Below are positions 1,786-30,680 of a stretch of 64,000 nucleotides of DNA, piece after piece; positions within the stretch are counted from its first letter, which is position 1, and every line of letters starts with the position of its first letter. Origin of the DNA: Methanococcoides alaskense (GTDB taxonomy: Archaea > Halobacteriota > Methanosarcinia > Methanosarcinales > Methanosarcinaceae); contig NZ_JAQFFK010000003.1 in assembly GCF_027594145.1 (NCBI RefSeq), forward strand, positions 682,001 through 746,000, written 5' to 3'. Position numbers and translations under genes: made by a program. Under the pieces are notes generated by a model that saw only the letters and a program-made list of their open reading frames with translations, was not told where the DNA came from and ran no database searches.

Positions 1786-2104
1786 TTATACTACTCCCCC
1801 AAACATATTTGATTCACAATCATTTAATATTGCCGGTTTAGATTTTTATCAAAATTTAATTAAATATGCAGCTATTAATTAAAGTTGCTTTTTTCAAAAG
1901 AATAAGTGAATTAATTAAAAGAGTGGCATTTTTACGAGTTACCTATATCCCCGATAGATTATGCGGGGATATAGGTAAGTCTATTTTTTTGTACGCTATA
2001 ATTACAAATTGCCAAATATAATCATCCGATTATAAATGTTGATGTTGAAATATAATTAATTTGAATGGTAAAGTATTTGTATTGATGATTTCGTTATAAA
2101 GCTA
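1786..2104. other. Intergenic region between the VOC gene and the retron RNA
   Basis: No gene is seen. The stretch is AT-rich, holds the palindromic element at 1928-1996, and ends in TATA-rich sequence that could carry the promoter for the retron RNA (for example around 2085-2100). Confidence 0.5.
1928..1996. repeat. Dispersed palindromic element, copy A
   Basis: Two perfect 13-base arms (ACCTATATCCCCG at 1941-1953 and its complement at 1964-1976) enclose a 10-base loop. The flank TTTTTTTGTACGC at 1984-1996 is, read on the other strand, the GCGTACAAAAAAA start seen in copies near 7196 and 7264. This is the best-preserved palindrome of a family with members near 7264, 7340, 7783, 13875 and 31324. 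Confidence 0.75.
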
Positions 2105-2268
2105 AGTTGTCCTCAGAAACTATCTCTTGTGAAAGAGGTATGTGTGGTGTAACATCATGCAAATGGCATACTAAGCAAAGGTAAACCTTTACCTGAGGAA
2201 TATGAAATTCCGCTTCGCTATTTCAATTTCATATTTCAGAAAAGCGTTCCGCTTTTGTGAGGACAACT
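2105..2268 (+). ncRNA. Retron-like msr-msd non-coding RNA
   Basis: Perfect 11-base terminal arms (AGTTGTCCTCA at 2105-2115 and its complement at 2258-2268) act as a1/a2. A G follows a1 directly at 2116, where retrons carry the branching guanosine. Inside are small stem-loops (CTCTT/AAGAG at 2124-2137; ATGC/GCAT at 2157-2169), a 7-base stem at 2179-2194, a 10-base stem AATATGAAAT/ATTTCATATT at 2199-2235, and AAAAGCG/CGCTTTT at 2240-2256. The first stems fit an msr and the later ones an msd. It ends 43 bases before the start of a reverse transcriptase with retron signature motifs. The assignment is by layout and folding by eye; no known retron RNA was compared. Confidence 0.8.
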
Positions 2269-2311
2269 ATTTTTCAAAATCGTATTCTAAGTTGTGTTTG
2301 GTGGGCAATTG

Positions 2312-4900
2312 ATGGATAAATTACCAAATGATAATAAATTACAAATTTAGTTTAATCATTATATTGAAATAGGTATTATTCCGAAGTTAAGTAGCAATGA
2401 ATATATAAATAATTTTAATTCATTTAAAAAATTGTATATTAACAATTTGCCATACATATACGACCGAGATCATTTTTGTAGTTTGTCAAATTCATCTTCA
2501 AAACAAATTGGTTATTTTTTATCTAAAAAAGAAAAAGCTTACTCTACGTTTAATTTACCCAAAAAAAATGGTAGTTTGAGAGAGATTAGTGCTCCTGCAA
2601 AACCAATGAAATATGTACAAAGATGGATTCTTGATCATATTTTATATAAATTAGACGTTGGAGATTTTTCTCATGGTTTTGTTCCAGGCAAATCAATTGT
2701 GACAAATGCGTCTATTCATGTTAATCAAGATTTAGTACTAGGAATCGATCTCAAAGACTTTTTCCCAAATATCCAATTTAATTCTGTTCGTAATATCTTC
2801 AAATCTGCTGGATACTCCCCAAAAGTTGCTTCGTTACTAGCTGACATATGCACCCATCATCGTACATTACCCCAAGGTGCTCCAACAAGTCCTACACTTT
2901 CTAATTTAGTGGCTTTAAAAATTGATGAAAAAATTGATGCATATTGCGCAAAAATAAATTTTAAATATTCAAGATATGCAGATGATATCACCATTTCTGG
3001 TGGTTCTAATCTTCCAAAACATAAACAAATTATAATAGAAATTATTGAAGAAAATGGTTTTATCGTTAATGAAGATAAAACGAGAATGTTTTCACAAGGT
3101 TCAAAACAAAAAGTAACTGGATTAGTTGTTAATGACAAAGTGAGCATCGGTAGAAAAAGGAAAAAGAATATACGAGCGACTGTACACAATATCCTTAAAA
3201 ATGGTCCCGAAATGGAGAATAGAGAAAACAATCCTTTCTTCAAAGAGAAGATTTTTGGGGAATTAGCATTTGTTAAAATGGTCGACCCTGATTTTGCAAA
3301 TCCTTTAATACAGAAGCTTAAAAGTTTAGATTGGATAAATTACAACAAAAAGTTAAGCAATCCAAGGGAAACGGAACTTGTGGTCCGATCTCTTCAGAAA
3401 AATAGTAAAATCAACCCTGAAACTTATGATCAACCTATTGATTCAGAAGGTGACTTCTTACAAGTTATTTGTGATGTCATTGCAGAAATGAAGCTTGGTA
3501 TGGAAAGACAAAAGTTTTATCCGACATTTTGGAATGAGGAATCTTTTGTGATATTAGATGGTACTAAACATAAAGTATCTCCTACTCCTAAAATACAATC
3601 AAGTGTTCATAAAATAATTTTTTCGTTTATTGAAGAGCGTCTATTACACAAAAATATTCAAACTATAGAAGAGTTTGATGAAGAAATTAAATATTTTGGC
3701 TTTAAGTTTTTGTTTACTACACAAAAAAGAATAGAGCTGAACGTTTCCACTGGACTGGAATTAGCCCATGACGCTCAATTAGAAAATAGTTTAACTAAAA
3801 AATTACCTTCATATATGGAAACAAGTTCTTCTAAATCAGGACTCTTTATTGTTATGTGGTTTAAAGATAAAAATGGAATATTTTTTGAAAAACCAACTAA
3901 TAAGAGCAAATCCGAGATGGTCGAACATCTGGAAAAAAATACAAAAGAAGTTAACGAGAAGGATAATTTAAAGATAGAGTCAATTTTAATCGATGTATCC
4001 AATAAATCTTCTGCTTCAAAAATTTCAGCTAATGTTTCTAAGCATCGTGATTTTTCGACTGTCAATATTTCACATACTGAAAAAAGAGTTGTAAAAATTA
4101 TAGCTGTACAGCTTGCTTATGAATTGTCCACTGAAGAGTTTCCTCCTCAGATTATTGATGAAAATAGGTTGAAAACAAAAGTTTTGAATGCGCTGGCTAA
4201 GGCATTTGATTTAGGAGCTGATATTGTTTGCTTGCCAGAACTTTGTGTACGCGAAGATTGGATTGAAGGCATCCAAAATACATATACGGATATGGTGATT
4301 GTAGCAGGGAGTTACTATGATAACGAAAATCACAATGTTTGTAAACTGATAGTTGATTCAAACATATCTATTCCTTTACAAATGAAAATAACCCCTTCAC
4401 CTTTTGAGAACCCAGGAATAACGGACGAAAATATGGTCCCTGGGAGTGAGTTATATATTTATAATACAAAGGTTGGAAAAATTTCTATACTCATTTGCAG
4501 AGATTTTTTAAATTTAAGAGATAGGCTTCGAGGAAACCAAAAACCAGACATTATTTTTATTCCTTCTTATAATTCAGCAACAGAAAGATTCTATGACGAT
4601 GCACATAACCACACTACTAATAGTGCTGTATACATTGTTATATCAAATACATCTCTTTATGGAGGAACTTCAGTATTTGGTTTAATTCGCCCTGAATCTC
4701 AGGGTGCCCTTGTAAGAAGAGGTTTCAAAGATGAAAATGATCGCCAAAATAAATTATGCAAACTAAGAAAAGGAGAAGAAGGATTTGTTATTGCTGATTT
4801 CAACTTAATCCATAAGTCACTTCAGAATCCAATGCCAGCTGATCCAGCTGAAGAAATAAAACCAGTTTCAAATATAGATAAGAAATTAATTGAGTTTTAA
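2312..4900 (+). CDS. Retron reverse transcriptase fused to a nitrilase-like domain, with in-frame TAG
   Basis: The N-terminal third is a reverse transcriptase with the retron marks NASIH (NAxxH), IDLKDFFPN, PQGAPTSP, YADD and VTG. A middle region of about 250 residues is unrecognised. The last 280 residues resemble a carbon-nitrogen hydrolase: CLPELC (Glu), QMKITP (Lys) and LICRDF (Cys) give the Glu-Lys-Cys triad. Such RT-nitrilase fusions are known in anti-phage RT systems (UG1/DRT1-like); here the RT motifs are retron-type. An ATG-to-stop frame without interruption begins only at TTG 2432, but the same frame runs upstream to ATG 2312 behind a GGTGGG ribosome site, broken only by TAG at 2348-2350. 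The 40 added codons read like the usual retron N-terminus (NEYINNFNSFKKLYINNLPY), so I place the start at 2312 and infer readthrough, possibly as pyrrolysine at residue 13. Full length about 862 residues. Confidence 0.85.
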
Positions 4901-5087: not shown

Positions 5088-6038
5088 ATGGAAGCCACTC
5101 CTGAACATGCTCAGGAGGTCATTGATTATTTTCAACCCCTCAATCCTTATAGCCTTGATATTGATTAATTGAAGCCTGAAAAAGACGATATGTGGTTTTA
5201 TGGAATCTCTTCAAAACGGTATGCACTTTATACTTTTGAGAATGGAAAGATTAAGTTCATGGAAGGGGAGAGATCTTTCAAATTGCATGGACTTGGACAT
5301 TTAACAAATCCATTTCCAAAGGATGTAGAGGATTGGCAGGCTGAGATATGGGAAGACATTGTTAAACTTCATTATGGAATGATCTCTGAATTGGATATTG
5401 AAGAGAAGTATTCAAACGTGTATGCTATTTCAAGGCTCACTGTTTCAACTGCAAACGTGTTGCACAGATTTGATGCTATCAATAAAGAGAAAGAATGGAA
5501 AGATCAGATTAAACCGTTCAATTTCTATCATGTTGGGTTTCAAGTTACTGAAGATGATGGCAAGGCAGTCAAGCCTTTATCTCCTTTCTCAAATGATCCT
5601 CAGAGTATTGTTTATGAACCGTTTATTGATTATGCAACTGGAGAGCTTAAAGAAGGATCTCATTATTTCAAACCGTTGAGCAGGACAATTATGCAATATG
5701 TAGATCATCTTGAGCATAAGTTTGATGGGGATATTGGTGTTCTTGAGAGAAAGCATGTTCATGCTGATTCTGTGATTTATATTGGAAAGGAAGCTAACAA
5801 TATTGATGAACAGGAATTGGATGTGAAGAAGGCTCAGGAGTTTATTAATGAGAAGTTAGTTTATGATTATATCTTGAAGCTTACTCCTGAGAAAGCAAGA
5901 GAAATTGGAATTAAACATAGGAGTGCTTTGGCTTATTTGAAGAAAAAAGCAAAAGAAGGAAGTTTGAATTTAAAAGCTAGGAATGTTAGAAAGATTTTTA
6001 CTAATATGACCATTAATCAATTTTTACAATATCAATAA
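5088..6038 (+). pseudogene. C-terminal remnant of a B-family DNA polymerase-like protein
   Basis: The frame from 5088 reads MEATPEHAQEVIDYFQPLNP, meets TAA at 5166-5168, then continues for 289 residues with KPEKDDMWFYGISSKRYALY. The SKRYAL block resembles the KKRY motif that follows the catalytic Asp motif in B-family polymerases, and the order of blocks fits the palm C-terminus and thumb. Everything upstream of about 5040, including the catalytic motifs, is missing. The last part (NNIDEQELDVKKAQEF) repeats at 130-200. The 3' end runs 26 bases into the convergent gene at 6013-7005. The open part may still be expressed from TTG 5169, but no ribosome site is visible. Polymerase kinship is moderately sure. 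Confidence 0.6.
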
Positions 6039-7195: not shown

Positions 7196-7385
7196 GCGTA
7201 CAAAAAATAGAGTTACTTTTTTTATATACTTTAGTATCGGTTGTGCAAGCATCATACATAAACCCGTACAAAAAAATAGAGTTACCTATATCCCCTAGAA
7301 ATTGTGTGAGGGATGAAATCCGAACTCCCTATAAATCTGGCGTACACTTTTCGAAATTAGCTATATCCCCGCACAATGGTGTGTC
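7196..7385 (+). repeat. Dispersed element, copies B, C and D in tandem
   Basis: Three starts of the family are seen: GCGTACAAAAAATAGAGTTA at 7196 (truncated), CGTACAAAAAAATAGAGTTA at 7265 running into CCTATATCCCC, and GCGTACACTTTTCGAAATTA at 7340 running into GCTATATCCCCGCAC. The right arms are imperfect (GTGTGAGGG, GGTGTG). The copies decay at different points, which suggests old insertions or remnants of element ends. Confidence 0.6.
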
Positions 7386-12221: not shown

Positions 12222-12301
12222 TATTTTTGTGTGTTATTTATGGCATGTTCACCATCCCATAAATCTATTTTTTTAATTCATCAATTGTTAGCTGGAGTTT
12301 A

Positions 12302-12390
12302 AGGGCACTTTGCATTACATGAAGCAGAATGCTAGAAGTGATATGACCTTTACTCTCAATGCTCATGTTAGGGGGAGGTTGGAATTATGG
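12302..12390 (+). mobile_element. Transposase C-terminal remnant 1
   Basis: The frame GTLHYMKQNARSDMTFTLNA then HVRGRLELW has no start and no upstream gene. Nearly the same peptide is coded at 30580-30661, with weaker copies at 26947-27027 and 28456-28500. I take these as tails of one decayed transposase family; the family name cannot be given from a tail alone. Confidence 0.5.
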
Positions 12391-12443
12391 CACATATAAA
12401 AAATAAATGTTTCTATTATTTCAAATAGAAGTAAATAGTTTGA

Positions 12444-30493: not shown

Positions 30494-30579
30494 ATAAGAT
30501 ATAGGGGGCATTTCTGAAGTCTAAATGCTCTCTTTACAAAAGTAATCTGGGGATTTGAAGGGGGAGGTTTGGATTCTCC

Positions 30580-30661
30580 AAATGTACTTTGCACTACATG
30601 AAGCAGAATGCTAAGAGTGATAAACTGTTTAGCCTTAACGTTCATGTTAGAGAAAGATTGA
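30580..30661 (+). mobile_element. Transposase C-terminal remnant 4, best preserved
   Basis: The frame KCTLHYMKQNAKSDKLFSLN then VHVRERL has no start of its own. It matches 12302-12390 in DNA (ACTTTGCACTACATGAAGCA against ACTTTGCATTACATGAAGCA) and marks a lost insertion sequence. Confidence 0.5.
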
Positions 30662-30680
30662 AAAATTGGGGAGGGTGAAT

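Follow-up and report, generated by a model that had tools for sequence, protein, structure and literature searches.

The stretch of Methanococcoides alaskense DNA analysed here (the window, 64,000 nucleotides) holds a locus that is a retron by each feature testable from sequence, and it is quite probably a genuine single-gene retron of the Methanosarcinaceae, carried by a casposon and armed with a nitrilase effector that msDNA would restrain. Its retron RNA, its retron reverse transcriptase (RT), the nitrilase fold with an intact triad, the loss of nuclease residues from the domain between them and the casposon-type ends were all computed directly. Apparently new are the nitrilase as effector, the casposon as carrier and a retron RNA with support in this group of hosts. 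Putative archaeal retron RTs were reported earlier (Rest and Mindell 2003, cited in PMC6868368), and a retron with a nitrilase or with a casposon is not described in the literature surveyed (titles and abstracts of openly accessible papers).

The retron RNA lies directly upstream of the RT in all nine related archaeal loci. In the window, its parts and candidate promoter are:

2074..2082 (+), weak TATA-like box, candidate RNA promoter, TATTTGTAT, at about the same place as the TTTATA of homologues
2105..2115 (+), a1 arm of the retron RNA, AGTTGTCCTCA, pairing with 2258-2268
2116..2116 (+), candidate branching G, directly 3' of a1, a sequence feature invariant in 10 of 10 RNAs
2121..2140 (+), msr stem-loop 1 of the predicted fold, 4 of its 8 pairs bearing double-sided changes among homologues
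2141..2161 (+), msr stem-loop 2, the best-conserved core, TATGTGTGGTG..CATGCAAA, from the fold, alignment and covariance model
2197..2237 (+), long msd hairpin of variable sequence, presumed msDNA template, from the fold; homologues bear their own hairpins there
2240..2256 (+), 3' hairpin beside a2 in the predicted fold, AAAAGCG/CGCTTTT in the window RNA
2258..2268 (+), a2 arm, TGAGGACAACT, perfect complement of a1 over 11 bp

A sequence-only reading of this DNA had pointed to perfect 11-base arms, a G right after a1 and several inner stems, all of which are borne out: the arms are complementary, the G stands at 2116, and the stems are present in a fold of 2101-2275 that, at -56.9 kcal/mol, is far stabler than shuffled sequences (-34.3 +/- 4.0; z -5.6; 0 of 200 shuffles as good). 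In an alignment of the RNA from ten loci, from which the variable msd part was excised beforehand, 95.5% of cells are paired, and shifting the partners abolishes the pairing. Twelve pairs are altered on both sides in these loci, against 3.6 +/- 1.4 in shuffles (0 of 500 as high), a figure that is not a probability because the loci are related by descent. The a1/a2 helix is 98% paired across the ten loci, with 6 of its 11 pairs changed on both sides; complementary arms are thus present in the homologues and maintained by compensatory change, one such change distinguishing the window copy from its seven closest loci. The arms of the G448 locus diverge widely in sequence, with pairing retained but for one mismatch. 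These compensatory changes in the stems indicate that the RNA is a conserved retron RNA.

Elsewhere in the family the 3' hairpin reads AAATCG/CGATTT or AAAACGC/GCGTTTT, and TTTATA stands at -27/-28 from a1 in five homologous loci, the window version being weaker. A covariance model that includes stem-loop 2 (R1) has matches in 15 of the 238 genomes of the class. Rfam gave zero family matches anywhere in the window, and at the loci of the bacterial relatives the archaeal RNA model found no RNA, its best score being 15 bits (E 0.6). At seven Methanosarcina-type loci (L103-L109) an RT-less relative of the retron RNA lies immediately upstream of a gene resembling a membrane-type Mrr nuclease, and an eighth locus (L110) partly resembles them. 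These RNAs were considered as RT-less retrons and rejected, their arms and stems being eroded, and they are therefore likely to be retron fossils retained at one place.

Downstream of the RNA lies a single fusion gene, whose parts are:

2312..4900 (+), RT-(PD-(D/E)XK-like)-nitrilase fusion gene, from ATG 2312, 43 bases past a2; the N-terminus aligns with homologues
2348..2350 (+), in-frame TAG at residue 13, candidate pyrrolysine codon in a host with PylS and tRNA-Pyl
2312..3346 (+), retron reverse transcriptase domain, by PADLOC, NCBIfam, phmmer and tree
3347..4060 (+), middle domain of PD-(D/E)XK-like fold with catalytic residues lost, by alignment with intact sisters, secondary-structure order and faster evolution
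4076..4897 (+), nitrilase (C-N hydrolase) domain, putative effector, by PADLOC, triad, structural model and Foldseek

An RT with NAxxH, YADD and VTG motifs had been claimed 43 bases past a2 and taken to be of the retron kind, and both claims hold. All three motifs (NASIH, YADD, VTG) follow the ATG at 2312, with key residues invariant in 8 homologues. PADLOC assigned the RT to RT_III-A (6e-106), and its best 25 matches are retron RTs, save one that matches the nitrilase end. The NCBIfam model NF038233 scored 271.5 bits, retron_St85_RT being above its cut-off and Drt2 below its own, and phmmer against the solved Ec86 RT gave 3.5e-49. In a tree built without UG sequences, the window RT falls in an archaeal retron clade (support 100/98) beside bacterial retron RTs, which mostly have separate neighbouring genes. 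The RT was also checked against UG1, and membership of UG1/DRT1 was rejected on the RT family found by PADLOC and NCBIfam and on this placement among archaeal retron RTs.

Among the 238 genomes of the class, seven close relatives were found, their RTs being 58-64% identical by the search table. Searches of the phylum and of contigs brought in G448 and, in G151, a broken copy. The closest RTs outside archaea, from Lysinibacillus, Paenibacillus and Bacteroidota, are about 34-43% identical. Two sister retrons (in G160 and G162) have RTs 68% identical to that of the window and 75% to each other. The relatives differ in their effector ends: the proteins of G150, G085, G157, G073, G153 and G448 carry a different C-terminal domain with an HHGHE-type stretch, and behind the window RT comes a middle domain of the G160/G162 kind and then the nitrilase. 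At L005:2404-3057, L007:2404-3021 and L119 (G448) an end domain of about 210 residues has cysteine pairs and a HYTGTTGGHHHGHEIYDM stretch; Pfam gave no match for two of these domains and PADLOC none for the one examined. The RT-nitrilase retron was found in one example, in an assembly that is 77% complete. Matches in plasmid records are all shorter than the fusion, none covering 80% of it, and one distant RT was matched in viral contigs.

The sequence-only reading had left the middle domain unassigned; probably it is a nuclease domain of the PD-(D/E)XK kind, dead in the window and intact in the sister retrons. The G160 and G162 proteins consist of an RT and a C-terminal domain of about 226 residues with DFKF...AEFK, a PD-(D/E)XK signature shared with G114 and, at a greater distance, with other proteins. 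The active site D...ExK, intact in the G160, G162 and G114 copies, reads G...GxE in the window (D to G, E to G, K to E). Identity in this domain is 41-42% between the window and the sisters and 76% between the sisters, and its evolution is about twice as fast, the acceleration being confined to the window copy. The order of strands and helices in the structural model fits a PD-(D/E)XK core. Since Foldseek gave no match for this model at E<=0.001 (those to EndoMS and PaqCI were not significant), what supports the assignment is the motif, the order of the secondary-structure elements and the existence of intact relatives. An intact PD-(D/E)XK-like domain also occurs at L038:4819-6117, in a 433-residue protein with a different N-terminus and without an RT.

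A nitrilase-like domain fused C-terminally to the RT had been recognised correctly, PADLOC, structural model and Foldseek agreeing on it. Its triad (E 4238-4240, K 4385-4387, C 4496-4498) is invariant as Glu-Lys-Cys in 19 aligned sequences. The model has a pLDDT of 89 and matches mouse Nit2 in Foldseek (2e-11), with significant matches to amidohydrolases too. Measured against the window copy, dN/dS is 0.22-0.30 for the nitrilase and 0.09-0.16 for the RT, low values that indicate purifying selection on both. The suggested kinship of the fusion with UG1/DRT1-like RT-nitrilases does not hold for this domain, which lies nearer to CARF- and NACHT-linked nitrilases: PADLOC matched the CARF_m7 nitrilase at 2.9e-92, and the DRT1 and UG5 models matched weakly (3e-13 and 5.5e-16). 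A CARF-nitrilase effector of type III CRISPR was considered and rejected, the CARF_m7 match being restricted to the nitrilase half (model positions 187-454) and Cas1, the one cas gene searched for, not being found in the assembly.

Closest to the nitrilase are the domains that end DUF4062-NACHT-HEAT proteins (1466 and 2005 residues long) and a TPR protein. Other kin form the ends of CARF-like and TIR-like proteins beside type III CRISPR-like subunit genes (proteins and genes both labelled by eye), the CARF link being backed by PADLOC. Across Methanosarcinales loci (L021-L030), one nitrilase domain forms the C-terminal end of proteins of DUF4062-NACHT-HEAT, TPR, HEAT-like, CARF-like and TIR-like make-up, several of them with type III CRISPR-like subunit genes alongside, and it is perhaps a shared archaeal immune effector.

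The sequence-only reading passed over the TAG at 2348-2350. Because this TAG interrupts the frame from ATG 2312, the list of stop-free open reading frames opens this gene at TTG 2432, a start that would lose about 40 conserved N-terminal residues. Homologues have a sense codon at the TAG position, mostly Leu, and the remaining 850 codons of the fusion frame are open. The host PylS scores 430.6 bits, above its cut-off, with tRNA-Pyl adjoining it, and TAG terminates 1 of the 29 long ATG open reading frames of the window. Pyrrolysine is plausible here because of this decoding apparatus, the rarity of TAG as a terminator in the window (that 1 in 29) and the N-terminus conserved with a sense codon. 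The host can probably read the codon in this way; the TAG could instead be a plain nonsense, or knock-out, mutation.

The retron lies within an element, likewise unremarked in the sequence-only reading, whose recognisable features are:

1965..1995 (+), left terminal inverted repeat, casposon-type, GGGGATATAGGTAAGTCTATTTTTTTGTACG
5100..6002 (+), casposon PolB remnant, the C-terminal third with one stop, 67% identical to the PolB of the G160 casposon
7265..7295 (-), right terminal inverted repeat, then a tRNA-like remnant GAGGGATGAAATCCGAACTCCC

Between these repeats are the retron and the PolB fragment. The element ends, at 1965 and 7295, match as inverted repeats in 31 of their first 36 bases. 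Both open with the M. mazei casposon repeat, with one mismatch at the left end, and 15 of the first 17 bases of the left repeat equal the published sequence (PMC10359463). That repeat, GGGATATAGGTAACTC, bounds the casposon MetMaz-C1, which targets tRNA-Leu (PMC10359463). The window element lacks both cas1 and a clean target duplication, and a search of the assembly (77% complete) turned up no Cas1 gene. With such ends and a PolB remnant, and without cas1 or a clean duplication, it would therefore be a degenerate or non-autonomous casposon. In G160 a pair of 44-bp repeats encloses the sister retron along with Cas1, PolB and an HNH protein, and the site is the 3' end of a tRNA-Leu. Taking cas1 and polB between repeats and a target duplication as the marks of a casposon, the G160 element has them in full and the window element does not. 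In both elements the retron adjoins one repeat and is directed inward.

The G160 contig (C54:1-31000; L041/L032) carries tandem casposons at tRNA-Leu with Cas1 proteins 89% identical, the second alone holding a retron. To the left of the window element lie a further remnant of a PolB C-terminus and a further casposon end (56-361 and 1935-1953), so the window begins in a row of decayed casposons. Short matches of about 71% to the casposon Cas1 C-terminal tail occur at 12301-12393 and 30565-30669, distant from the element. A AAAAACGCAAC stretch raised the suspicion that the G448 retron, too, sits in a casposon, and a search found none.

Two precedents bear on how such a locus might work. In Eco2, an RT-Toprim fusion, the assembly of msDNA and RT is self-inhibitory and restrains the C-terminal effector within one protein, and a phage nuclease frees that effector (PMC12405507). 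In DRT1 an RT-fused nitrilase is the antiphage effector, requiring its catalytic Cys; its tetramer is the active form, filaments keep it dormant, and the defence works through abortive infection (PMC13275509). Taken together, these precedents make a nitrilase restrained by msDNA and freed on infection the best reading. Accounting in this way for msDNA synthesis, msDNA inhibition, trigger, substrate and defence role, the RNA at 2105-2268 would be the msr-msd template, and the RT, by homology, would prime at the G after a1 and copy the msd into msDNA. The RT-msDNA complex would most likely keep the nitrilase in an inactive assembly. A virus perturbing the msDNA would let the nitrilase form active oligomers and hydrolyse an essential amide- or amine-containing metabolite, and the infected cell would die or halt its growth, an abortive infection. 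The nitrilase would substitute for the activity of the upstream PD-(D/E)XK domain, which is now presumably dead and probably serves as a linker or as a surface for assembly; the casposon would have carried the retron unit.

It is very improbable that this is instead a DRT1-like system, whose RT would make protein-primed untemplated DNA controlling the nitrilase, with the upstream RNA incidental or regulatory. DRT1, too, acts as a single gene whose RT carries a nitrilase at its C-terminus (PMC13275509), and its nitrilase model, like that of UG5, matches the window domain weakly, but the window RT is a retron RT, an RNA with a1/a2 covariation accompanies it even in relatives without a nitrilase, and the nitrilase is far nearer to the CARF-linked ones. 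Least probable of all is that the middle domain is the effector and the nitrilase a passenger: the G160 and G162 sisters, with RT and middle domain only and D..ExK intact, would suit this, whereas in the window all three catalytic residues have changed, the domain has evolved about twice as fast and the nitrilase triad is intact.

A retron in decay, left behind in a dead casposon, disabled by the TAG and without present function, is unlikely. The TAG does break the fusion frame, the neighbouring PolB gene survives as a fragment, the assembly yielded no Cas1 gene, and RT-less fossil RNAs occur in the family. However, the host has PylS and tRNA-Pyl and probably reads TAG, the 850 codons past it are open, the catalytic residues of RT and nitrilase are intact with low dN/dS, and the a1/a2 helix is perfect, including a compensatory change absent from the seven closest loci. 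The msDNA-restrained, casposon-borne retron is preferred to these readings.

As far as the literature surveyed goes, published experimental retron work is bacterial, and an archaeal family whose RNA is well supported makes msDNA testable in genetically tractable Methanosarcina. The recurrence of the nitrilase behind several archaeal sensors suggests a general effector, and a retron within a Cas1 casposon joins two mobile-element worlds in one unit. A broader picture is tentative and rather doubtful: archaeal retrons might be a distinct, casposon-carried immune lineage with msDNA-RT as a swappable sensor, the nitrilase module passing between retrons, NACHT-type proteins and type III CRISPR; here the nitrilase might have supplanted the nuclease, whose active site was then lost, and expression might be tied to pyrrolysine decoding.

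Among known retrons, as defined in PADLOC 2.0.0 (types I-XIII), the effector is not matched by any type, and the RT part alone fits those models among the matches listed. The window shares a single gene, an upstream msr-msd and a retron RT (NAxxH/YADD/VTG) with a C-terminal effector with the fused-effector retrons I-C (RT-Toprim, Eco2/Ec67), XI (RT-protease) and XII (RT-TIR). It differs from them in its archaeal host and in its effector, a nitrilase preceded by a PD-(D/E)XK-like domain that is dead, and its RT is nearer to RT_III-A, RT_XIII and RT_II-A than to those of I-C, XI and XII. Types III-A and XIII and the bacterial relatives have the closest non-archaeal RTs (about 34-43% identical); in contrast to the window, the bacterial relatives mostly have separate upstream genes and no fusion, and their RNAs are unmatched by the archaeal model.

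DRT1 (UG1) and UG5 also combine an RT with a C-terminal nitrilase, whose Glu-Lys-Cys is present in the window. Their RTs belong to a different clade, an RNA partner is not described for them and their nitrilases are distant; synthesis in DRT1 is protein-primed and untemplated (PMC13275509). The window nitrilase belongs to the family of the CARF_m7 nitrilase of type III CRISPR-Cas and the Methanosarcinales NACHT-HEAT-nitrilases (39-63% identical), in which the sensor is CARF, NACHT-HEAT, TPR or TIR-type and not, as in the window, a retron. The putative RT of Methanosarcina acetivorans is of the archaeal retron type, like that of the window, and was noted from the RT sequence; the review passages on it describe no RNA, effector or carrier (PMC6868368). 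MetMaz-C1 of M. mazei has its terminal repeat in common with the window element, which differs in having no cas1 and only a PolB fragment, and in carrying a retron, which is unmentioned for MetMaz-C1 (PMC10359463).
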